Shown here piece after piece: positions 4,637 to 56,718 of a stretch of 64,000 nt of DNA (its first letter is position 1; every line of letters begins with the position of its first letter). The notes beneath the pieces are model-generated. The model was not told the DNA's origin. It was given only the letters and a program-made list of their open reading frames with translations, and did not search any database. Source of the stretch: Thermococcus sp. 21S7 (GTDB lineage Archaea; Methanobacteriota_B; Thermococci; Thermococcales; Thermococcaceae). The stretch is from positions 248,001-312,000 of the forward strand of contig NZ_SNUT01000001.1 of the NCBI RefSeq assembly GCF_012027615.1, given 5' to 3'. The position numbers and the translations under genes are program-made.

Positions 4637-5908
4637 TCACCTCTTGCCCTTCTTCTTTTTCTTTCCGCTTTTCTCGCCCTTCTTACCCTTTCCGGCTTTC
4701 TCCTTCTTCTTTCCACCGAAGCCCTTGCCCCGCTTTTCTTTCCCCTTGAACTTCTTCTTTTTCTTCTTTTCCGGCTTGGCCTTCCTCTTGGGCGGGTTCG
4801 GATACTTCTGCTTTATTTCCTGGATGCGCTGCTCTATCTCCTGCTTCAGCTCCTCAGCGATGTATTCGCCGGAGAAGTAGTCAACGCGCGCCGCTATGGC
4901 GAGCTTTCCTGCCAAAGCCCTCGCTATCTTACCCCTCTGCCACCACGGCGAGCGGTTTATGGCCGGGTACTGGAAGATGACGCCGTGCTTTGGCGGCTTT
5001 GCACCGCTCCTCAGGTGTCTGAAGAGCGCCTTCTCTGCACCTAAGACCTGTATGGTCGATGCCGGCATCATGGCGAGCTCCTTCAAGCCCCCTGCGAGGC
5101 TGAGCAGTCTGGCGCCGAGTTTTGCCCCAACGAGGGCCTTCAGGTTCGGTGCGACCTCGTCCATGGCGGTCTCAAGGTAGTCCTCTATCTCCTCCCTCAG
5201 CTTGTAGAGGTCGCTTATCTCACTCGCGAGCTTCATTATGATGCCCGCATCGAACTTGCCGAGGGGAGCGCCCATCGAGGTTTCCGCAGCCCTCAGAATC
5301 TTTTCCACCTTACCCTCTGGGAGGCCGAGGCTCTTGAGCTTCTCCTCGCTCACGTTCTCCCTCGGGCCGACGGCCTTGACGAAGGCAACGTACTGCCCGT
5401 GCTTGGGAAGTATCTCGTCGAGCTCCGGGAAGTGAAGGCTGTACCACTCCCTCAAGCGAGAAACGAGCAGGTTGATGACCTTGTCGATGTCGTCAAGGGC
5501 CTCGATGGCCTGAATTATCATCTTGTCGCGCGCGCCGCTCTGCTCCTGTATGCGGAGCCTGGTCAGGGCAACGCCGACGCTGAAGTACTCGTCGAACCAG
5601 TTCTCGCCGAGGAACTCCTCCGGGCTTGAGCGGAGCTTCTCTCCGGCGATGTTCGGGAACTCCGCGGTGGCGTTGTAGCCGAGCTCCTTCAGGTTCCTGC
5701 TCAGCTCCGAGTCCTCAAGGACGAACTCGTCGTAGCCCCTCTCCTTAAGCTCGTCGAGGAAAGAAACCAGCTCGTCGCTCGGCTCGCCCTTCAGAAGCCT
5801 GTCGAGGCTCACCTCCGGCCTTCCGGAGAAGGCCTTCTGATCAATGAGATTACCGCTCTCGTCAAAGGCATAGATGCCCCTGACGTTCTCAGCCACGTAA
5901 GCTTTCAT
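4637..5908 (-). CDS. Nop5/Nop56-type box C/D RNP scaffold protein
   Basis: A 423-residue scaffold that binds L7Ae-guide RNA through its Nop domain and fibrillarin through its N-terminal domain. The N-terminal domain (1-125), central coiled coil (about 125-240) and Nop domain ([40 protein letters not shown] near 290-330) are all visible. The C-terminal 60 residues are almost entirely lysine, glycine and arginine, a disordered basic tail common in the family. Four methionines stand in a row at the start; I choose the last (5908), which places GGGTGAT at the usual distance. A minus-strand CTTTTATAC near 5940 is a likely TATA box. Confidence 0.95.
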
Positions 5909-6020
5909 CATCATCACCCTCTCAGTTTTTGTTTCCGAAGTATAAAAGGGTTAGGCGTTTTAAACCCTTGCGGGCAAATTCTTAAATAACTTTGGACAGT
6001 AGGAGTTCAGGGGGAGAGAT

Positions 6021-7007: not shown

Positions 7008-8577
<1,570 letters not shown>

Positions 8578-8640
8578 TTAAAAATACCTCTGCCGTACAG
8601 TTTACAAACGTAAATGGCACTAACGACCATTGCAGAAAGA

Positions 8641-8650
8641 TTTATAACCA
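8641..8650 (+). promoter_or_regulatory. TATA box of the aminotransferase gene
   Basis: TTTATAACCA at 8641-8650 is a good archaeal TATA box. Transcription about 25 bases downstream would begin near 8670, which excludes the in-frame GTG at 8669 as a start codon and leaves a leader of about 65 bases before ATG 8738. Confidence 0.6.
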
Positions 8651-8737
8651 ATCGCCGCTACTCTTTAAGTGTATAGATTTGGTGACGTGCTCAAAAGTGT
8701 GCATCTAATGGGGGGAACGGAAGTGGAGGAAAAACTT

Positions 8738-9979
8738 ATGCGCAAGCTGAGTTCAGGGTCACTGGATTTTGAAGCGTACTTCTCGGACAAGGCTCAGGGG
8801 ATGAAGGCTTCGGAGATTAGGGAGCTCCTCAAGCTCGTTGAGGCGGGGGACGTTATCTCCCTTGCCGGCGGTCTTCCCGCTCCCGAAACCTTCCCTGTCG
8901 AGACCATAAAGGAGATAGCCGCCGAGGTTCTCACCCACCACGCCGACAAGGCCCTGCAGTACGGAACCACCAAGGGCTTTACGCCGCTCCGCCTCGCTCT
9001 GGCAGACTGGATGGAGAAGCGCTACGGCATCCCGACCAGCAAGGTTGAGATAATGATGGTCGCCGGCTCGCAGCAGGCGCTCGACCTCATCGGAAGGGTC
9101 TTCATAAACCCCGGCGATATAGTCGTGGTCGAGGGGCCGACCTACCTCGCGGCACTCAACGCGTTCAAATACTACGACCCCGAGTTCCTCAGCATCCCCA
9201 TGGACGACGACGGTATGATGGTTGACCTCCTTGAGGAGAAGCTCAGGAAGCTCAACGCTGAGGGCAAGAAGATTAAGTTCGTCTACACCGTTTCGACCTT
9301 CCAGAACCCGATGGGCGTTACGATGAGCCTGGACAGAAGGAAGAGGCTCATAGAACTCGCCCGGGAATACGACTTCCTCATCGTTGAGGACAGCCCGTAC
9401 AGCGAGCTCAGGTATTCGGGCGAGCCCATACCGCCCATAAAGCACTTCGACGATGAGGGCCGCGTCATGTACCTCGGAACATTCTCGAAGATACTCTCCC
9501 CTGGAATGAGGCTCGGCTGGATAGCGGCTCACCCGCACTTCATCAGGAAGATAGAGATAGCCAAGCAGGCCGTCGACCTCTGCGCCAACACCCTCAGCCA
9601 GGTCATAGCCTGGAAGTACGTGGCGGACGGCCACCTCGACGAGCACATACCGAAGATAATAGAGTTCTACAAGCCGCGCAGGGACGCCATGCTGGAGGCA
9701 CTGGAGGAGTACATGCCGGAGGGCGTCAGGTGGACCAAACCGGACGGAGGAATGTTCATCTGGGTCACCCTCCCGGAGGGCATCGACACCAAGATGATGG
9801 CCGAGAAGGCCATAAGGATGGGCGTTGCCTACGTGCCGGGTGAGGCTTTCTTCGCCCACCGTGACGTCAAGAACACCATGCGCCTGAACTTCACCTACGT
9901 GCCGGAAGAGAAGATACACGAGGGCGTCAAGAGGCTTGCTGAGGTCATAGAACAGGAGATGAAGGCCCTCAAGGGCTGA
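8738..9979 (+). CDS. PLP-dependent class I/II aminotransferase (MocR/2-aminoadipate type)
   Basis: A 413-residue fold-type I aminotransferase that moves amino groups between amino acids and 2-oxoglutarate. The PLP lysine is in LGTFSKILSPGMRLGW (about residue 245) and the phosphate and ring contacts are in SQQALDL and VEDSPYSELRY; SLAGGLPAPETFP at the N-terminus is the usual substrate loop. Archaeal relatives act on aromatic, branched or 2-aminoadipate substrates; I cannot pick one. Start at ATG 8738 behind GTGGAGG; earlier in-frame GTG and ATG codons are weaker and the first is at the predicted transcription start. A pyrimidine-rich tract follows the stop. Confidence 0.9.
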   Translation: MRKLSSGSLDFEAYFSDKAQGMKASEIRELLKLVEAGDVISLAGGLPAPETFPVETIKEIAAEVLTHHADKALQYGTTKGFTPLRLALADWMEKRYGIPTSKVEIMMVAGSQQALDLIGRVFINPGDIVVVEGPTYLAALNAFKYYDPEFLSIPMDDDGMMVDLLEEKLRKLNAEGKKIKFVYTVSTFQNPMGVTMSLDRRKRLIELAREYDFLIVEDSPYSELRYSGEPIPPIKHFDDEGRVMYLGTFSKILSPGMRLGWIAAHPHFIRKIEIAKQAVDLCANTLSQVIAWKYVADGHLDEHIPKIIEFYKPRRDAMLEALEEYMPEGVRWTKPDGGMFIWVTLPEGIDTKMMAEKAIRMGVAYVPGEAFFAHRDVKNTMRLNFTYVPEEKIHEGVKRLAEVIEQEMKALKG

Positions 9980-10043
9980 CGTTTCTTCTTTTCTTCCCGC
10001 AAAGCTTTTTATTCTGTGAACGTATCACTGGGTGGTGATACTT

Positions 10044-10889
10044 ATGAGGCCATTGATAGGTATAATAGGTCAGGTTGACCCATCCAAAAACAGGCTTTTT
10101 CTTGACCGCAGGCACGTTGAGAAGGTCACCGCTGCCGGGGGCGTTCCGGCGGTTTTCAACATAAACTCCTCCCCGGAGGAGGTTCTTGAGCACGTGGACG
10201 GGGTGCTGCTCATAGAGGGCCCCGATGTTCATCCGCACTTCTACGGCGAAGACCCCTCAGGCGCGATAAAATACGTTGACGTTGAGAGGGACGAGTTCGA
10301 GATACGGCTCGTGAAGAGAGCCGTGGAAAGGGGCGTTCCGATACTCGGCATCTCCCGCGGGATGCACGTGATAAACGTTGCCCTCGGGGGAACGCTCTAT
10401 CAGGACTTGAACGACATTCCCAAGGCAATAAAGCACGACTGGGACGTCGAGCTGATAGGGCCGACCCAGAGGGTTCACGGCATCAGGATAAAGACCAGCT
10501 CCGCCCTCTACGAGATACTCAAGGACGAACTGGACATAGGGGGAACCAACGAGGTCTACCTCAGGGTCAACAGCTTCCATCACCAGGCCGTTAAGAGGGT
10601 CGGTGAGGGAATAAAGCCAGTCGCCTATGCCGTGGACGGGCTGATAGAGGCCATCGAGGGAACCGAGGGCTTCATAATGGGCCTGCAATGGCAGCCGGAG
10701 TACCTGCCCGAGATGGGCAGGGTCTTCGAGGCCTTCGTCAAAGCCGCCGCAGAATACCGCCTCGGCAAGCTTGAGCTGGAGAAGATAGAGATAGAGGCTG
10801 AGCTCAGGGAGGAGCTCACAAGGGAACTAGGTGAGAGCCATCACAGCTCGGAAACGAGTGATACTCCTCCCGACATGAGCCAAACGTAA
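10044..10889 (+). CDS. Class I glutamine amidotransferase-like protein (peptidase C26/PuuD family), catalytic residues replaced
   Basis: A 281-residue homologue of gamma-glutamyl-gamma-aminobutyrate hydrolase. The fold landmarks are present (PLIGIIGQ at the start, VDGVLLIEGPDV, PILGISRGMHVINVALGGTL). The nucleophile elbow that should read GICRG or GVCRG reads GISRG (TCC serine codon at about 10352), and the WHPE motif carrying the catalytic histidine reads WQPE (CAG codon). Both changes are unambiguous in the DNA. It may therefore be a non-catalytic binding or regulatory protein. Start at ATG 10044 behind GGTGGTGAT. Its last 74 bases overlap the end of the convergent radical SAM gene. Confidence 0.85.
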   Translation: MRPLIGIIGQVDPSKNRLFLDRRHVEKVTAAGGVPAVFNINSSPEEVLEHVDGVLLIEGPDVHPHFYGEDPSGAIKYVDVERDEFEIRLVKRAVERGVPILGISRGMHVINVALGGTLYQDLNDIPKAIKHDWDVELIGPTQRVHGIRIKTSSALYEILKDELDIGGTNEVYLRVNSFHHQAVKRVGEGIKPVAYAVDGLIEAIEGTEGFIMGLQWQPEYLPEMGRVFEAFVKAAAEYRLGKLELEKIEIEAELREELTRELGESHHSSETSDTPPDMSQT

Positions 10890-11658
10890 TTCCCCGTTCC
10901 AGAACCTTTTTCTTCGCTTCCCTTAATATCTCAAACCTCAGCTCGTGGGGCAGGTAGCGGTATCCCCCAATCTTTTCTCCCATCTCGTAAAGCGGCCACA
11001 GCTTTTCCATCAGCCCGGGAAATTTCGCGAACATTCTCTTCCTTGAGTCGGGCCTCAGCTTGAGGGTCGAGACGGTTATATGGCTCACGAAGCTCAGGGC
11101 ATCGAGGGTTTCATCAAAGTCCTCCCAGGTGTAGAACGGTATTATCGGGTCGATGCGGGCGTAAACGGGGATGCCCGATTCTTTAGCCTTCTCCAGCGCT
11201 TTAATCCTTGCCTTCGGCGACGGGGCGTTCGGCTCCAGAAGCTTTGCCTTCCGTTTATCCACCGTGGTCACAGTTATCCCGACGGCGCACTTCAATTCGC
11301 TCAGAACGTCCAGGTCGCGCACAAATACCTCCGACTTCGTGAGGAGCAGGCATCGGACGTCGTAGCGTTTGAAGAGCTTGAGAACGTTCCGTGTTATGCC
11401 CAGTTCGCGCTCGATCGTCGGATAGGGGTCTGATGAATAGGAGAGCGCTATTATGTGGCGCCTGTCAAGACGCCTCAGCTCCCTCTCCAGCTTCGGCAGG
11501 AGACCTTCCTTAATCCTCACCCTAAAGGCGTTGGGGATGTAGCTCGTTATGTAGCAGTAAACGCAGGCATGGTCGCAGCCGGTGTAGACGTTCAGCGTGT
11601 ACTTAAAGGGGCATGTGCAGAGCTTCGCCTTCCACGGGTCGAAGGGACGGATATACAT
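10816..11658 (-). CDS. Radical SAM protein of the spore photoproduct lyase-like (SplB) family
   Basis: A 280-residue radical SAM enzyme. The [4Fe-4S] cluster motif CDHACVYC lies at about residue 28 in the context LNVYTGCDHACVYCYI, typical of SPL-family archaeal proteins rather than MoaA or NrdG. Downstream IALSYSSDPYPTIE and AKLLEPNAPSP match the family barrel. The SPL name reflects homology only; the archaeal members' substrates are unknown to me. Starts at ATG 11658; the stop lies 74 bases inside the convergent amidotransferase-like gene. Confidence 0.85.
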   Translation of the reverse strand: MYIRPFDPWKAKLCTCPFKYTLNVYTGCDHACVYCYITSYIPNAFRVRIKEGLLPKLERELRRLDRRHIIALSYSSDPYPTIERELGITRNVLKLFKRYDVRCLLLTKSEVFVRDLDVLSELKCAVGITVTTVDKRKAKLLEPNAPSPKARIKALEKAKESGIPVYARIDPIIPFYTWEDFDETLDALSFVSHITVSTLKLRPDSRKRMFAKFPGLMEKLWPLYEMGEKIGGYRYLPHELRFEILREAKKKVLERGITFGSCREEYHSFPSCDGSHLVPL

Positions 11659-14787: not shown

Positions 14788-15513
14788 TTAAAAACTCATC
14801 CCCACGGTGATGTCGCCAACCACGTCCTTAACGGTGATCACGACGGTTCCATTCTTCCCGGTTGCAGTGTTGGTCACGTCTCCCACTATGTCCTCAGCGG
14901 TAAGCGCCGCCCCAAAGTCCTGGGGAACGGTTATGGTCACGTCGCCAACCACGTCGCTTATCGTCGCCCTTTCCACGACGTTGAGGTGCACATCGCCCAC
15001 GATGTCCGAGAGATCATAATCGTTCCAGGAGGTTCCCGTTACATCCCCAACAACGTCCGTAACGTCGACCTGGGTCGAGTTCGAGGCCACGAGGACGTCC
15101 CCAACAACATCGCGGACGTTCAAGCCCAGCAGCCTCCCCGGAACCTCGACTATAACGGTACCGTTCCGGTAATCGTTGCAGATGTTTCTGTGGGTAATGC
15201 CAACCTTTTTCGTTGGACAGTAAACCGTCAGAACCCCTTTCTCCAGGCTGACGTTTATCGGCAGGTTGCTCCTGACCACAATCCCGCTCACGTTGGCACC
15301 GACAACCGAGACGTTGCCGACGACGGCTTTTACCTCCAGCACGGAGGCGTTGAACTCCCCGATCTCGACGACCTTTCCCGCCACCTTCTTTGGGGTTATC
15401 CCGTGTATGCTGATGTCCCCTCTGATGGCCAGGATCGTGAGAACCGCACCGATCAGGAGAACCGCGATACCCACGCCAAGCACCACACTGACGAGACCGC
15501 CTTTCCGCCTCAT
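14788..15513 (-). CDS. DUF4097-type beta-helix protein with N-terminal membrane anchor
   Basis: A 241-residue protein with one N-terminal membrane helix (LVSVVLGVGIAVLLIGAVLT) and then an extracytoplasmic beta-helix. Six copies of the motif D(V/I)VGD(V/I) are spaced about 20 residues apart (DVVGDVLV, DVVGDVTG, DIVGDVHL, DVVGDVTI, DIVGDVTN, DVVGDITV), the ladder pattern of DUF4097 adhesin-like domains. Such proteins are commonly encoded next to PspC, as here. Start at ATG 15513, behind GGTGGGATGC; the ATG at 15540 lacks a site. A minus-strand AACTTTATAC near 15550 is the likely TATA box. Confidence 0.82.
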   Translation of the reverse strand: MRRKGGLVSVVLGVGIAVLLIGAVLTILAIRGDISIHGITPKKVAGKVVEIGEFNASVLEVKAVVGNVSVVGANVSGIVVRSNLPINVSLEKGVLTVYCPTKKVGITHRNICNDYRNGTVIVEVPGRLLGLNVRDVVGDVLVASNSTQVDVTDVVGDVTGTSWNDYDLSDIVGDVHLNVVERATISDVVGDVTITVPQDFGAALTAEDIVGDVTNTATGKNGTVVITVKDVVGDITVGMSF

Positions 15514-16645: not shown

Positions 16646-16733
16646 GGAGATTTTATAAACTTGCCGATTTTAGAACCACAGCGTTTATAAAACGCCGCTC
16701 ACCTCTTACTTCAGAGCTTCTGGGGGGTCAGGG

Positions 16734-46438: not shown

Positions 46439-46516
46439 GCGGTGGTAGTCTAGCCTGGTCTAGGACACCGGCCTTCCAAGCCGGTGACCCGGGTTCAAAT
46501 CCCGGCCACCGCACCA
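46439..46516 (+). tRNA. tRNA-Gly (TCC), attachment site of the integrated element
   Basis: Acceptor GCGGTGG (46439-46445) pairs with CCACCGC (46506-46512), discriminator A, encoded CCA. Anticodon loop CTTCCAA gives TCC; T arm CCGGGTTCAAATCCCGG. The tRNA stays intact because integration restores its 3' part. An integrase fragment reads antisense through the entire gene. Confidence 0.97.
46452..46516. other. attL region of the integrated element (approximate)
   Basis: The integrase-like reading frame on the minus strand crosses the whole tRNA-Gly without a stop and ends two codons beyond its 5' end, in host DNA. In SSV-type integration the attachment core is the 3' half of the tRNA, from around the anticodon to the CCA. 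A second copy of this 3' half should mark attR beyond the right edge of the window. Limits are inferred, not observed. Confidence 0.6.
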
Positions 46517-46780
46517 CAATCTGTTTCTGAAGCCTTGAAAGAGCATCTTCCTGCGAAACAACCGCCGCAAGAATCATATTGACCACCTGCGACAAGTTGT
46601 AGCCCCTACTGCGAACTTCCTCGACCAAACCCTCATACAAGTAAAGATGAACCCGTTTCTTCTGCCAGTAATCGGCCAAATCTCGATTGAGAGCCTTACT
46701 TTTTTCATGGGCTTCTTGTCCCAAAATGACCCACCCGTTGAAATGTGACCGTGGAGAGATATTAAGACTGCGGTCATGGT

Positions 46781-46987
46781 TCACACCCTCACGAAGTCGT
46801 AGAACTCTTTCAGCGCGTCGGGAAGCGTGTACTCGCGCTTGCTCAGCTTTACGGCAACGTAGTGCTTTCCATCGCTGCCTTCTAGGAGGATGTAGAAGTT
46901 TCTCGCCGACTCTGCGAGAGCGTACTTATCTTCAATCTCGATAACCTTTGCGGGCTCGCCGTCGATCATAATATATTCCACGAACAT
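46781..46987 (-). CDS. Small uncharacterised protein next to the integrase fragment
   Basis: A 68-residue protein, mixed beta and alpha (FVEYIMIDGEPAKVIEIEDK, HYVAVKLSKREYTLPDALKE). No family recognised. ATG 46987 follows GAGGTGACGGCC. Its stop overlaps the intN start, and its own start lies seven bases after the stop of the HicB-like gene, so the four genes 47571 to 46431 form one operon. Confidence 0.65.
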   Translation of the reverse strand: MFVEYIMIDGEPAKVIEIEDKYALAESARNFYILLEGSDGKHYVAVKLSKREYTLPDALKEFYDFVRV

Positions 46988-49121: not shown

Positions 49122-49697
49122 TCACCTCCCCCTCACATAGGCCGGAACGAACGGTCTTGTCTGAGCCGGCTTCACACCGAGCAAAAGCTCCAAATCATCC
49201 CGCAACTCCTCAACACTCTTCGAGACGATGGCCTCCTTGAGGTCAATGACAGCGTAGTAATCCCTCGCGGATCCACCGCGGCGGTACTCAAAGCTCGGCT
49301 CAACGTGCGCCACGTTGAACATCACAAACCGCTCCTCGCCCACTTGAATGAAATAATAGAGCGGGAGCGCAAAGACTTCAGAGAGGGCCCTGAGCCGCTG
49401 GAACTGCCAGCCATTCACGAGAAGCTCGCCCTTCGCCCACGACTCCTTGGCCACGCGCCAGCTAATGAACTTCAGCTCGAACGCCGCGAGAGGCACGTCA
49501 GAGCGCTTCCTGAAGAGTACTGAGTCGATGTCGTAAATCGAGAACATCTCCGGCATGGCGGCTTCAATGAGGGAGCTGAAGATGTACTTGTTTTCCGCGT
49601 TCTTTATCTCGCGCTCCATGTAATCAAAGAAGGGCTTGTAGACTGACGGCCCGTAGCGGGCCGCCTGGCGAATCATTGCTGCCCTCGCGGCCACCAT
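49122..49697 (-). CDS. PD-(D/E)XK nuclease-like protein
   Basis: A 191-residue protein with the PD-(D/E)XK active-site pattern: Asp in YDIDSVLFRKR (about residue 56) and E-x-K in PLAAFELKFISW (about 74), preceded by a helix with Glu (SSLIEAAMPEMF). The length and single domain suggest a resolvase, restriction-type or recombination nuclease. ATG 49697 overlaps the upstream stop (TGATG). Confidence 0.68.
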   Translation of the reverse strand: MVAARAAMIRQAARYGPSVYKPFFDYMEREIKNAENKYIFSSLIEAAMPEMFSIYDIDSVLFRKRSDVPLAAFELKFISWRVAKESWAKGELLVNGWQFQRLRALSEVFALPLYYFIQVGEERFVMFNVAHVEPSFEYRRGGSARDYYAVIDLKEAIVSKSVEELRDDLELLLGVKPAQTRPFVPAYVRGR

Positions 49698-50736: not shown

Positions 50737-52830
50737 TCATGCGCGCGATACGCCCGAATAAACCACGTTCAGACCAGCCTCAACCGCCTTCTTCCTGTCC
50801 AAAACCAGCTTATCGTCCGCCTCAAAGACCACGCTCTTGGCCTTCAGAATGTCCAGAGCCGTCCTGAGGACCGTCTCAGGAATCCCCGTCTGCTCAGCCA
50901 ACTCCTCAAAAGAAACCGGTTGCATCGCCAGAACATTCACAACCTCGTCCAGAACACTGAAGACTTCCTGCTCGTACTCCTCCCTCTCCATCGGCGCGAC
51001 CTGGTCAAGGAAATCCTGGAGCGGGACGACAGCAACCCATGTCTGCCTACCATTGAACCGCTTCTGTTTGTAGCCCCAATTCATCAATCTCCTAAGGTCA
51101 GCAAAGCTGTAGATGTCCAAATCCCTCTTATCAGCCTTCAAAGCATCAAGCAGGCTCCTGAAGATGATGACCTCTCCGTCCCTCAGGTAGAAGTACTCGC
51201 TGTAATTGGCCCTGAGAACATACTCGACCCTCTCGCGGATGTAATCAGCCCTGTCCTCGCTCTTCTTGACGTTCTTGAGGTAGAGCTCGTTGAAGTGCCT
51301 CCTGAGCCAGGTCGTAACGTACTCGACCTTCTCAGCCTCAAGCTCCTCGATGAAGTCCTCCTCCAGCGATGCTTCCCTGAACCACTGCGGAACCGGTAGG
51401 CCGGCGTAGGAATAGAGGGCCTCGACGAGAAGCTCAGCGAGGTCAATCCAGTGGTTGTCGAGGAGCTTGGGGTCGGCCTTCACGAGGTTGAAAACAAACC
51501 TGCCGATTGCAGAGAGGACACCCATCTTTGGCACAATCTCGCGCTCAAACCTTCCCTGAGCCTCCTTCGGAATCTTGTCCACCTTCGTGAACTCGACGGT
51601 GAGAAAACGCCTCCTGATGGCCTCGTTCCGAGGAGCGCTCATGTTAGCCGTGAAAACGAAGGTAGCCAGCGACGGATAGATTTTGATTGAACCCTTGTAG
51701 CTCTTGAAGCGGAAGAGGTACTGCTCCGGAGCGTTCTTGAGCAGGTTGAACAGGTTGTCGTCCTCGTCTCCCCTGTTGAGCGAGCGAAAGAGGTTGGCCG
51801 CTTCATTCAGAATTAGGACGCTCGCCCTGGAGGCAATCAGCTCGCTGAGGGTGTAGAGGCTCCACGACGCTCCAGAGGAAGTGAACGGAGAGGACCACAT
51901 CTCCGCGATGACTCTTCCAACGCTGTGAGTCTTACCCGTCTGAGACTCTCCTATTAATAGTAGGTAAGGAATCCATCTCCGCTTTTCGTTATAGACCTTG
52001 TAGGCGTATCCAAGGCCACCCACGAGGGCCCACTTAATGGCCCTGCCGAACTTGTAGGGCCAGCTCTCACGCCACGAGGTTTTGTTCACAGTCCTCGTTA
52101 TCTCGTCGAGCAAAAGGAGGGCTTCCCTGACTTCTTCAGGTGAAGGCATGCTCGTGTCAAAGTCATACGCCTCAAGCTGGCCCGTGTTCGGGTTCCAGTA
52201 GATGCCAGGAGCCATCGGCCTGTCCTCAAAACGCACCGCGTTGAGGTAGCGGGCGAGGGTTAGAATCGTGTCAATGGCCTCCTTTGCCAGAGGCTCGCTG
52301 GAGAACAGGCCACCGATTTCCTTCAGCCTGTCGAGGAGTTCCACCGCTAAAACAGGCTCAAGCTCCTGAACCACCGGACCTTTCCAGCTGTTCAAAGCGA
52401 CGGTCCACTGGTAAAGGACTGGCGGGCTCCTTCCAAGTTCCCTCGCGGCAAGCTCAAGAGTGAAGTCCCTGAAGGCCCTTATCTCGACCGGCACGAGGTT
52501 TAGGATTGTTTGCTCGTGGATTGGGACTTCTTCAACCACTGGCTCACCGGTAGCCTCGTCCTTTACGGGCTTGCCTTCCTCGTCCACGACCTTTCTCCTG
52601 ATGACCCTGTGGAGGACCACGCGGGGGCGGTGGTAATCAAGGATCCAATAGTACCTCCCCCTGCGCTTGAATATGACTGTGTAAAAGTCAATGTAGTCCA
52701 AGGGGTAGCCTCTGAACTCAGCTGGAAGGTAGTTTTCGTCCTCCAAAGTTCTGGCTTCCTTGAGCAGTTCCTGGAAGGCCATGAGAAGCGGTGAAGTTTC
52801 AATGTAGATTCTGACTTCCTCCTGGTCCAT
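50737..52830 (-). CDS. Replication-type P-loop ATPase/helicase (Rep) of the element
   Basis: A 697-residue protein. N-terminal 230 residues: uncharacterised, with an extended hairpin near residue 85. Central AAA+ core: Walker A LLIGESQTGKTHSVG (about 295), Walker B ASVLILNEAANLF (about 340), sensor ATFVFTANMSAP (about 390) followed by NEAIRRRFLTVEF with the arginine-finger region. C-terminal 80 residues: winged helix (SFEELAEQTGIPETVLRTAL). This is the layout of plasmid and virus replicative helicases (D5- or MCM-like) and recalls the pT26-2 Rep protein. The origin-like repeats lie just upstream at 53.1-53.5 kb. Confidence 0.8.
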   Translation of the reverse strand: MDQEEVRIYIETSPLLMAFQELLKEARTLEDENYLPAEFRGYPLDYIDFYTVIFKRRGRYYWILDYHRPRVVLHRVIRRKVVDEEGKPVKDEATGEPVVEEVPIHEQTILNLVPVEIRAFRDFTLELAARELGRSPPVLYQWTVALNSWKGPVVQELEPVLAVELLDRLKEIGGLFSSEPLAKEAIDTILTLARYLNAVRFEDRPMAPGIYWNPNTGQLEAYDFDTSMPSPEEVREALLLLDEITRTVNKTSWRESWPYKFGRAIKWALVGGLGYAYKVYNEKRRWIPYLLLIGESQTGKTHSVGRVIAEMWSSPFTSSGASWSLYTLSELIASRASVLILNEAANLFRSLNRGDEDDNLFNLLKNAPEQYLFRFKSYKGSIKIYPSLATFVFTANMSAPRNEAIRRRFLTVEFTKVDKIPKEAQGRFEREIVPKMGVLSAIGRFVFNLVKADPKLLDNHWIDLAELLVEALYSYAGLPVPQWFREASLEEDFIEELEAEKVEYVTTWLRRHFNELYLKNVKKSEDRADYIRERVEYVLRANYSEYFYLRDGEVIIFRSLLDALKADKRDLDIYSFADLRRLMNWGYKQKRFNGRQTWVAVVPLQDFLDQVAPMEREEYEQEVFSVLDEVVNVLAMQPVSFEELAEQTGIPETVLRTALDILKAKSVVFEADDKLVLDRKKAVEAGLNVVYSGVSRA

Positions 52831-52844
52831 GGAGCTCGCCTCGG

Positions 52845-53003
52845 CTAAGTTTTTATCTCAGGCAGGACGTGGGCGAGGAGCTCGCGGAGGGTTTCATCCT
52901 CCGTTACCTTCCTGCCCTTCTCCATGAACAGCTTCCCGCGGTAGCGCTGGAAGAGCTGGTACGTGTCCTCACGAACCACAATCTGTTTCCAAGTTGCTGG
53001 CAT
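52845..53003 (-). CDS. Small ribbon-helix-helix-like protein upstream of rep
   Basis: A 52-residue protein (PATWKQIVVREDTYQLFQRY, RGKLFMEKGRKVTEDETLRE) with the strand-helix-helix spacing of RHH regulators. ATG 53003 follows GGTGAGCAAA. It lies between the repeat region and rep and would be well placed as copy-number or rep repressor, by analogy with CopG; that is inference. Confidence 0.68.
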   Translation of the reverse strand: MPATWKQIVVREDTYQLFQRYRGKLFMEKGRKVTEDETLRELLAHVLPEIKT

Positions 53004-53213
53004 TTTGCTCACCTTCAATTATATTGAAGTTTTCAAATAATTTGAAGAACTTAGATTATTTAAAGCTTGCGTGGGCAAAAGTTGGAAATGTTACTCAAAA
53101 ATGGGTAACTAAAGATAAGGTGTCACACTACCAGTCACATCTTGTAGAGTGTGACGCAATGTGACGGGGGTTAGAGGTCTCTATTCGGCTAAAAAAGGCA
53201 GGAGAAAGCTCCG

Positions 53214-53234
53214 TTAATGTCACAATGTCACACT
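53214..53234 (+). repeat. Left arm of a perfect 21-base inverted repeat in the origin region
   Basis: Starts TTAATGTCACAATG and ends TCACACT; contains two GTCACA hexamers eight bases apart. Its exact reverse complement is at 53352-53372. Confidence 0.9.
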
Positions 53235-53351
53235 CCAAAAAACATACCCCCTATATTTTGTTTTTCATGAATTTTCTCTTTGAAATTGAACATCTGTTCA
53301 AAATTAGGTTAATCTAACCAAGAAAAAACACATATAGGGTGTTTTTATATA

Positions 53352-53372
53352 AGTGTGACATTGTGACATTAA
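53352..53372 (-). repeat. Right arm of the 21-base inverted repeat
   Basis: Starts AGTGTGACATTG and ends TGACATTAA, the exact reverse complement of 53214-53234, 117 bases away. A TATA-like TTTTTATATAAG (53342-53353) abuts it. Confidence 0.9.
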
Positions 53373-53464
53373 AGAAGGAAGGAGAATGCTTTATTTCAAA
53401 AATAAAGCGAAAAAACCCTGCGTCACAACCGTCACATAGCGTCACATTGCAAGTTAGTGTGACG

Positions 53465-53884
53465 TCATTGCCTAAAAGAGTGAAGCATAATCTCTCTTTC
53501 TAAACTAGGATCTAAAAACACAAATCCTTTTGCATGGACCTCTCCAACGATATTGGGTGGGATACCTTCTATGAGAATTTGCGGAGTATGGATGACTTTT
53601 AATAGAATAACCTCTATAATCTCACCTTTGCTTAGGTTTAGCTTTCTTACAAGTTCCACCGGAAGAGGAGTCACGCCCTGGCTACTGACTCTCAAAATTA
53701 CCAGCGCTCTTTTGATAGGTTCAGAGTTTCTGAGCTTTCTTAGAATTACGATAACATAATCCTTGGCATTTATAGAATAAACCTCTCGTGTCTCTTTAGG
53801 TAACGTAATCCTATTTTGAGATAGCACTCGTGTGTGGAACTTTGCTAATGGTTCTATTAGCTCAATATTGTCCGATGAGTCCAA
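53465..53884 (-). CDS. AbrB-like double-domain regulator, third of three tandem paralogues
   Basis: A 139-residue protein with two swapped-hairpin AbrB-type units: FHTRVLSQNRITLPKETREV (about residue 20) and VSSQGVTPLPVELVRKLNLS (about 70), each followed by a short beta-hairpin. It aligns by eye with the two genes upstream, beginning IEPLAKF in each. I start at TTG 53884, seven bases after GGAGGTG; an ATG at 53899 would contain that site. It overlaps the upstream gene by 23 bases. Probably a transcription regulator of the element. Confidence 0.72.
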   Translation of the reverse strand: MDSSDNIELIEPLAKFHTRVLSQNRITLPKETREVYSINAKDYVIVILRKLRNSEPIKRALVILRVSSQGVTPLPVELVRKLNLSKGEIIEVILLKVIHTPQILIEGIPPNIVGEVHAKGFVFLDPSLEREIMLHSFRQ

Positions 53885-54314
53885 GGTATACACCTCCATA
53901 ACTATCGAATCCGATTGTGCTCTCGTCATCTTCGGAAATTATAGCATATCCCCGTCTTAGCAGTTGGGTCTTGTATTTAGAAAAGACGACCTTATCCGTT
54001 AGAATGTCCTCCGGCTTGAAAAAGTTGAGTAGAAGGGCCTCGATTATATCCTGTTTTAGTTGTATCCCCATCATTCTGGATAATTCCGATGGTATAACTA
54101 CTCTCCCATTCACCCCCACCTTAGCTATCAGTACGGCCCTTTTCGTGGGTTTTTTGGTCTGTGGGTCGAGTTTGCGTATCAGGAGTTCTGCGTAGTCGCC
54201 TTCTTCGATGTTGTAGAGTTTGCGGGTTTCTTTTGGTATGGTGATTCGGCCTTTGGTGGTGGGTTGTGCGTGGAATTTAGCTAGAGGTTCCATGATTTTA
54301 GCTTTACCAGTCAT
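53862..54314 (-). CDS. AbrB-like double-domain regulator, second of three tandem paralogues
   Basis: A 150-residue protein: MEPLAKF, first hairpin unit AQPTTKGRITIPKETRKLYN, second unit VGVNGRVVIPSELSRMMGI, and a C-terminal tail of about 45 residues (VVFSKYKTQLLRRGYAIISE). ATG 54314 follows GGGGGCACGGCC and overlaps the first paralogue by 11 bases. Confidence 0.78.
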   Translation of the reverse strand: MTGKAKIMEPLAKFHAQPTTKGRITIPKETRKLYNIEEGDYAELLIRKLDPQTKKPTKRAVLIAKVGVNGRVVIPSELSRMMGIQLKQDIIEALLLNFFKPEDILTDKVVFSKYKTQLLRRGYAIISEDDESTIGFDSYGGVYLGLIGQY

Positions 54315-54726
54315 TGGCCGTGCCCCCTAGGGTTGTTAGGAGTGTGGCTTCCTCGTCAATCTCGTTGAATTGGACTTTCGGGGTGAGGATAGGTCCAACC
54401 TTGCTTTCCAGCTGTGAGCGAACGAGAATATAATCAATGAGGAGAATCTCCACAAAATCACCCACTTTTAGCCCATATTTATCCCGAACCTTCTTTGGGA
54501 TTGTAAAAACGCCTCTATCATAAACCTTAGCCACCGCAAAAATCCGCCCGCGAATCCTCTTGGATTCATCTGGAACTCTTATTATGACAACCACAAAATC
54601 CCCATCCTGAATTCCATAATATTCTCTAATATAGATAGGAATCATGACCTTACCTTGTGGTCTGAGTTTGCTTTGGAATTTCGCCAGTGGCTCGATTACC
54701 CTGGTCTCGCTGTCTTGGTCGGGCAT
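54304..54726 (-). CDS. AbrB-like double-domain regulator, first of three tandem paralogues
   Basis: A 140-residue protein: IEPLAKF, first hairpin unit SKLRPQGKVMIPIYIREYYG, second unit VYDRGVFTIPKKVRDKYGL and a divergent tail. ATG 54726 follows GGAGGACC. An inverted repeat at 54745-54763 in the promoter region is a candidate binding site for one of these proteins. Confidence 0.78.
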   Translation of the reverse strand: MPDQDSETRVIEPLAKFQSKLRPQGKVMIPIYIREYYGIQDGDFVVVIIRVPDESKRIRGRIFAVAKVYDRGVFTIPKKVRDKYGLKVGDFVEILLIDYILVRSQLESKVGPILTPKVQFNEIDEEATLLTTLGGTANDW

Positions 54727-55812: not shown

Positions 55813-56718
55813 TTACCTTTTGACTCTTACGATTGATTCCCCATTATGGTTATCGAAGATCTTTATTACTGAGGTCTGGTCAAAGGTGAGGGTCACTGTG
55901 TGATATAGTGTCATGGCCATTTCGTAGAAGTCAGGATCCCGCTCAAGTGGCTGAACGTTTAGGCCGAGTTTCATAGCTTTTTTCCTCGTGATGTGCCTAT
56001 CGTGTACTTTAGTATCTTCATGGCTAGACAAAAATTCTGCAATCTTGTGAGCTTTTTCTTCAGCATCTGGTTGCCCATGGAACATGTATTCTGCAAGCCA
56101 CTCCTCTACGAGTTCCTTGGCAAGTGCCATAGCGTTCTGACATTCTATCAGAATTCCGGGCGGATATTGTTTAAGTATTGGCATCCATGCTGCGAGGACG
56201 TTAGGGTTCTGAGAGCACTCCTGCTTGGCTTGCTCGAATTGCTTTAGGATAGCTTCTGCTGAGACCATTTGGTAGCCGTTTTCCGTAGGTATCATGAACT
56301 GTGGGTCTATAGGTCCGAGGGTTGCATGTGGAGCCATTAAAATTTCATCTGCTGCCAGTGCTATCATGGTAGCAGCAGACATGGCTGCTTGCGGAATAAT
56401 GACTCTAATGTAGTCATACCTATCACGGAGATAATCTACGAGGTTTTCTGCTACAGTTAACGAACCTCCAGGACTGTGAAGGATAAAGTTGAGGGTTTCT
56501 CCGTTGAGGGTTCTGGTCACCTCAACGAAACCTTCTAAGTCAGCATCAACAAGTGAGACTAAGTGGGCAGGATTTGTTGGATCTGTCCACGCAGTAGCGT
56601 ACAGAACAACATCCGAGGACGTATGTTTATGAATATCATTTAGAACATTTCTCCGAGTGTGATCATATGGGTTTGGGAAGTTTTCAATATGGTTGAGAAC
56701 TTGGTGCCATGTGGGCAC
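55813..56718 (-). CDS. SDH-family Clp-fold serine protease
   Basis: A 301-residue member of the serine dehydrogenase proteinase (ClpP/crotonase-like) family. FILHSPGGSLTVAENLVDYL forms the oxyanion region (about residue 85), and the nucleophile serine is in IPQAAMSAATMIALAADEIL (about 115); HATLGPIDPQF follows. The domain is complete, with no signal peptide, so it is cytoplasmic. Relatives are linked to SppA and to membrane-protein quality control. Carriage on a mobile element is unusual. ATG 56718. Confidence 0.85.
   Translation of the reverse strand: MPTWHQVLNHIENFPNPYDHTRRNVLNDIHKHTSSDVVLYATAWTDPTNPAHLVSLVDADLEGFVEVTRTLNGETLNFILHSPGGSLTVAENLVDYLRDRYDYIRVIIPQAAMSAATMIALAADEILMAPHATLGPIDPQFMIPTENGYQMVSAEAILKQFEQAKQECSQNPNVLAAWMPILKQYPPGILIECQNAMALAKELVEEWLAEYMFHGQPDAEEKAHKIAEFLSSHEDTKVHDRHITRKKAMKLGLNVQPLERDPDFYEMAMTLYHTVTLTFDQTSVIKIFDNHNGESIVRVKR

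Follow-up and report, generated by a model that had tools for sequence, protein, structure and literature searches.

A cluster of twelve TGTGAC/GTCACA words in a gap between genes of the 64-kb stretch of DNA analysed here (the window) is likely to be a replication origin of the Rep/iteron type. In this origin, the large ATPase encoded next to the gap (Rep) would read the words and open an AT-rich core, a small RHH-like protein would act as repressor, and the iteron word and its reader would switch together. The evidence comes from the arrangement of the words in the window, from their counterparts at homologous rep loci, from the variation of the two candidate DNA-binding proteins and from GC skew.

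Iteron cluster and host element

The gap at 53004-53470 has a GC content of 35.6% and is bordered on one side by an AbrB/MazE-like gene (53465..53929) and on the other by a 52-aa RHH-like ORF (52845..53003; homologue of t26-21p, 85% identical), which is followed by the intact 697-aa ORF of Rep (50737..52830), all on the minus strand. Rep is a P-loop ATPase homologous to t26-22p of pT26-2 (93.6% identity); its identity to the pGE2 protein is 62%. Over the window as a whole, TGTGAC/GTCACA occurs at chance level, with 19 copies against 19.9 expected, and 12 of the 19 are concentrated in the 342 bp at 53122-53463. In 2000 dinucleotide shuffles of the gap the word was found 0.3 times on average and 3 times at most, while the top count for any 6-mer with at least three different letters was 7. 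The preliminary description, which reported twelve such hexamers in about 345 bases, at a density far above chance and mostly in pairs 8-12 bases apart, the gap being AT-rich and followed downstream by a small RHH gene and a Rep-type ATPase, is confirmed in these points, the spacing applying to steps in the same direction. The next base is G in six of the twelve words and A in five, giving the iteron TGTGACR.

The iterons are arranged as opposed arrays with fixed spacing, words of the same orientation following each other at steps of 8-12 bp. On the side of the AbrB/MazE-like gene, the outer array A (53422..53463) consists of one inverted word (53458, plus strand) and three direct words (53441, 53431, and 53422, minus strand). 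It is separated by an AT-rich spacer of 54 bp (53368..53421), containing the inverted repeat GCTTTATTT-TTG-AAATAAAGC, from the inner pair B (53354 and 53362; 53354..53367, plus strand). The AT-rich core of 121 bp (53233..53353), which contains the dyad TTGAACAGATGTTCAA and is the probable unwinding region, leads to the inner pair C (53227 and 53219; 53219..53232, minus strand), a spacer of 53 bp (53166..53218), the outer pair D (53150 and 53160; 53150..53165, plus strand), and the distal pair E (53134 and 53122; 53122..53139, minus strand). Further along, the TATA-like box TTTAAATAAT (53055..53064, minus strand) would belong to the RHH-rep promoter, and two palindromes (53013-53029 and 53032-53046; together 53013..53046) between this box and the RHH start are the likely operator.

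The host of the origin is a 25-kb virus- or plasmid-like element integrated at a tRNA-Gly gene (46439-46516), as had been supposed. The 46-bp 3' part of this gene (attL, 46471..46516, plus strand) is repeated exactly 25.1 kb away, beyond the window (attR, G000:C1:319570-319615), and an SSV-type integrase gene is split between the ends of the element, its N-terminal part lying at 46517..46784 (minus strand) and its C-terminal part at L020:6735-7628; the gene reads through once the ends are joined. Good matches to pT26-2 were obtained for five proteins of the element (t26-20, 21, 22, 27, and 28), and the integrase matches at 40%. The element differs from pT26-2 in having no detectable core genes (t26-5, 6, 7, 11, 13, 14, and 15 were sought by tblastn at E 1e-3) except for a weak, partial match to t26-5 (31%). 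The order of AbrB gene, gap, RHH-like gene, and t26-22p-like Rep is that of the t26-22p replication module, which has been kept in the element. Because only this module is pT26-2-like, we take it to have been acquired from, or to be shared with, a different element family; replication-module exchange has been described among Thermococcales spindle-shaped viruses (PMC12934983). The other genes fall into PHROG families without assigned function or into a membrane protein family.

Three further features of the element may be mentioned here. Next to the gap there are three tandem AbrB/MazE-like genes (53465-53929, 53862-54314, and 54304-54726), of which the third is 92% identical to t26-20p; pT26-2 has one. 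The gene at 55813-56718 encodes a ClpP-like/SDH-type protease, for which the nearest phage relatives within the collection come from bacteriophages (Gordonia, Porphyromonas, and Shewanella), with identities of up to 40% across the full length. Downstream of rep, the product of the gene at 49122-49697 has a match in a PHROG family whose annotation is Holliday junction resolvase, and is homologous to t26-28p (42%).

Layout and words of the homologous origins

Eight origins were compared, namely those of the window, pT26-2, pGE2, L007, L003, L009 (probably TKV3 of Thermococcus kodakarensis), and two loci cut off by contig ends, G090a and G090b. A repeat cluster of this kind is present upstream of the RHH-rep genes at each of the five homologous rep loci, as well as at the two contig-end loci. 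The expectation in the preliminary description that related Thermococcales elements would carry the same hexamer was only partly borne out: the cluster is there in every case, but what is conserved is the layout and the general form TGTNAYN rather than the word itself. Each of the eight gaps holds 11-13 iterons, with one word per origin and different words between origins: TGTGACR in the window and L009, TGTGACC in L007, TGTTACC in L003 and G090a, TGTAACC in pGE2, TGTCATA in pT26-2, and TGTCATG in G090b. Position 4 takes all four bases across the origins and a single base within each. The homologous gap of L009 contains 12 copies of TGTGAC, the same 6-mer as in the window, despite the distant relationship.

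The layout shared by these origins runs from an outer array over 52-54 bp to a facing inner array, then through the AT-rich core to the other inner array and over 52-54 bp to its facing outer array, usually followed by one or two extra words. The spacer between convergent arrays is 52-54 bp long in 16 of 16 cases, the core measures 78-151 bp, and the same-direction steps are mostly 8-12 bp. When the layout pattern was searched with TGTTACC in 94 Thermococcaceae genomes, the matches were only the two origins already known for this word, and the controls gave none. The core of the window origin resembles those of L007, L003, and pT26-2 and not that of L009, whereas the flank of its array A is nearly identical to L009, so that the window origin is a mosaic.

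The two contig-end loci, G090a (L034:1-535) and G090b (L035:9814-10315), apparently come from one genome in spite of their different iterons. Their RHH strands differ as well, and both contigs end in an identical 3' part of the RHH-like gene. The corresponding Rep genes, including the Rep segment that they share, were absent from the G090 assembly.

The window origin is an added member of a replicon type whose origin location was already predicted. For pT26-2, an origin had been predicted from GC skew in the interval separating t26-20p from t26-21p (Soler 2010, cited in PMC6972569), which is the gap equivalent to that of the window. The origins of pT26-2 and pGE2 resemble the window origin in their homologous Rep and RHH-like genes, in the position of the gap, and in the array layout, and differ from it in the word (TGTCATA and TGTAACC, respectively, vs TGTGACR). 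According to PMC6972569, a comparison of all origins of the pT26-2 family found no conserved consensus, and the text examined gives no word or spacing rule. In a literature scan for the iteron words, the term iteron was absent from the best-ranked matches. The location of the origin is not new. Neither the layout rule nor the joint switching of word and reader seems to have been described in the literature examined.

Candidate readers of the iterons

Rep is the most likely candidate both for recognizing the iterons and for opening the core. Its ATPase region is common to the primase-helicases of pORA1 and HAV2 (28-30% identity). Among the 94%-identical Reps of the window, pT26-2, and L007, 11-13 of the 42-50 differences fall within one stretch of 20 residues, a concentration seen in 0 of 5000 permutations. 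This hypervariable patch (residues 579-598; codons at 51037..51096, minus strand) has a pN of 0.35-0.43, compared to 0.03-0.07 elsewhere, i.e., about 10-fold higher. The synonymous difference is also raised (0.54-0.92 vs 0.38-0.51 elsewhere), and recombination is therefore likely part of the divergence; positive selection alone is not claimed.

AlphaFold2 models of Rep, which were made from two sequences and whose confidence is low to moderate (mean pLDDT 43 and 75, locally 50-83), predict helices at 559-567, 569-573, and 576-583 and a hairpin at 586-603, which together make up a winged helix, and a second winged helix at ~616-684. The variable patch coincides with the end of the predicted recognition helix and the wing of the first of these. 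A scan of all Rep columns in six Reps returned column 591, located in the wing, as the sole fully ungapped column matching the iteron classes: it is R in the window and L009, K in L007, L003, and pGE2, and T in pT26-2. The window agrees only with L009 in four columns, three of them being 569, 584, and 591. To judge from this covariation among six sequences, the iteron word apparently changes together with the DNA-reading part of Rep. No solved structure matching Rep was found among PDB sequences (E 10). The fold search with the full-length model, which is too poor for the purpose, gave no significant match, and that with the C-terminal model gave generic winged-helix matches only.

Other Rep-like genes are accompanied by other words. 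For pORA1 and the other Thermococcales primase-helicases sharing the last Rep domain, the densest 6-mer clusters contain no TGTNAC. Another large Rep-like gene (L047:5451-9231), which lies in the same genome ~46 kb away from the window on its right side, and its counterpart in G087 (L048:7367-11150) have the last winged-helix domain in common with Rep, and ATTCCC occurs 7 times close to their start. In G016, eight GCTACC words within 450 bp (L049:11101-11800) are located directly downstream of a split Rep-like gene (8559-11253).

The best-surviving alternative, which we nevertheless consider unlikely, is that the RHH-like protein and not Rep reads the iterons, the array being an operator or copy-control region on which RHH dimers occupy the tandem words. 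RHH proteins can bind tandem short words, as do, e.g., the omega repressor and MetJ. The variation of the RHH-like protein is concentrated in its N-terminal strand (6-7 of 11 columns vs 1-2 of 42 in the conserved remainder, among the closest three), and in each of the eight origins the strand class (Y-K-S or W) corresponds to whether or not the iteron ends in CC. However, identical strands are paired with different words in two instances: L009 and pT26-2 share the strand SEGWRAVYVRE, yet have TGTGACR and TGTCATA, and L007 and G090a share GYKSIAV, yet have TGTGACC and TGTTACC. The strand was rejected as iteron reader on the basis of these two pairs. In addition, the promoter palindromes are available as a separate RHH site, and the RHH assignment itself, made from the sequence pattern alone, was not recognized by Pfam or PDB sequences.

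With Rep as the preferred reader, the RHH-like protein probably represses the promoter of its own operon, and thus of rep, through the palindromes just upstream. The promoter palindromes of the window are replaced by other palindromes in its relatives; they are alike within L009/G090b, L003/L007, and pGE2/G090a and otherwise different. The argument for the RHH site from the match between strand and palindrome is weakened by pT26-2, which breaks this match.

Similar arrays in viruses and origin function

Arrays of this kind were also sought in IMG/VR with a pattern of two words, a gap of 50-56 bp, and a facing word, reversed words serving as controls. The contigs matched numbered 63 for TGTTACC, 110 for TGTAACC, 4 for TGTGACC, and 2 for TGTCATG, with 5 and 8 for the reversed controls. 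At least five copies within 420 bp were present in 60 of 63, 108 of 110, and 3 of 4 contigs for the first three words, compared to 1 of 13 controls. The 171 array regions fall into 51 independent groups, and the opposed TGTTACC, TGTAACC, and TGTGACC arrays of these contigs (L052-L118 and L131-L240) are mostly non-coding and belong to apparently unrelated viruses. Of 22 arrays inspected, 16 adjoin a D5, DUF5906, VapE, DUF927, or other primase-helicase gene, a fraction that is not unbiased, as the genes were picked by size.

The viral TGTNACC arrays are similar to the window origin in the form of the word, in steps of 8-10 bp, and in the placement of opposed arrays around a core. They differ in that the convergent spacer is often shorter (20-56 bp) and that the array is in several cases situated at the 3' end of the primase-helicase gene. 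No Rep relatives were found in the viral contigs by protein or profile search, and hhalign gave no significant similarity between the Thermococcales Reps and three viral primase groups; against D5- and DUF927-type phage proteins it gave E ~0.07, which is not significant, with both best alignments on the Rep wing. The word arrangement suggests that in numerous other viruses, too, TGTNACC arrays denote origins next to primase-helicase genes, and that the window origin represents a strict, local version of an origin type that is widespread. It is conceivable, albeit not the reading we would favor at present, that opposed TGTNACC arrays represent one origin code of viral and plasmid primase-helicases in archaea and bacteria. 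This code would be read by a winged helix behind the helicase, and base 4 and the last bases would switch with the helix and wing, creating incompatibility groups while the rest of the replicon stays unchanged.

The cumulative GC skew has its minimum at 5848 in pGE2, inside the gap (5529-5985), at 54144 in the window element, ~0.7 kb from the gap (53004-53470), and at 16719 in pT26-2, ~1.4 kb from the gap (14843-15342). In three elements, the skew switch suggested as a check in the preliminary description is thus located within the gap or close to it. The reading given there, an iteron origin of plasmid or virus type, is supported by the repeat clusters at homologous rep loci, by the integrated element and, indirectly, by these minima. 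The two minima off the gap, and the presence of the rep promoter within it, would also be compatible with an array that only regulates the flanking AbrB and rep genes, the origin being elsewhere in the element. We regard this as very unlikely, given the symmetry around the core, the 11-13 copies over ~350 bp, which exceed the usual needs of promoter control, the pGE2 minimum within the gap, and the similar viral arrays adjoining primase-helicase genes, since those at the 3' end of a gene cannot hold its promoter. Least probable of all is a centromere, i.e., a ParR/parC-type partition site, with the RHH protein on iterons beside a motor gene: the arrangement found here, in which iterons precede the genes of a small RHH-like protein and a P-loop ATPase, does resemble parC-parR layouts, but the ATPase groups with helicases and the primase-helicases of pORA1 and HAV2, and not with ParA/ParM, the skew minima fit an origin, and the RHH strand and the iterons do not track.

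For the Rep/iteron origin, the mechanism that we propose is as follows. The first of the two predicted C-terminal winged-helix domains of Rep would read each iteron, its recognition helix and wing (~576-603) setting the word. Rep bound to the inner and outer arrays would form helicase rings over the AT-rich core and open it, so that the excised circle would replicate by the theta mode. The iteron number, being nearly constant, might, as a guess, fit two hexamers.

The origins of phage P4 (alpha protein) and of the SaPIs (Rep) have an initiator of helicase type that carries a C-terminal winged helix, their iterons lie by or around an AT-rich region, and each SaPI Rep has its own iteron. The window origin is similar in both respects, the winged helix being predicted here, and is unlike them in its strict convergent spacer of 52-54 bp, its archaeal host, and the small RHH-like gene before rep; no homology between the P4 and SaPI initiators and Rep was evident from the sequence tests run. 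In the geminivirus Rep/iteron and lambdoid O protein/ori systems, short iterons differ between close relatives and change along with the DNA-reading segment of the initiator, although the initiators, replication modes, and hosts are unrelated to those of the window origin.

The comparison gives explicit and testable layout and word rules for origins earlier called consensus-free, and the sequence pattern is usable for origin finding in uncultivated viruses. It also provides nearly identical natural replicons that differ in iteron and reader, which are suited to studying residue-base reading and to tests of word switching and compatibility, as well as candidate compatible origins for Thermococcus vectors. 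If word and reader indeed change together, close relatives would neither fire nor titrate each other's origin, and the initiation of replication would be specific to each element.
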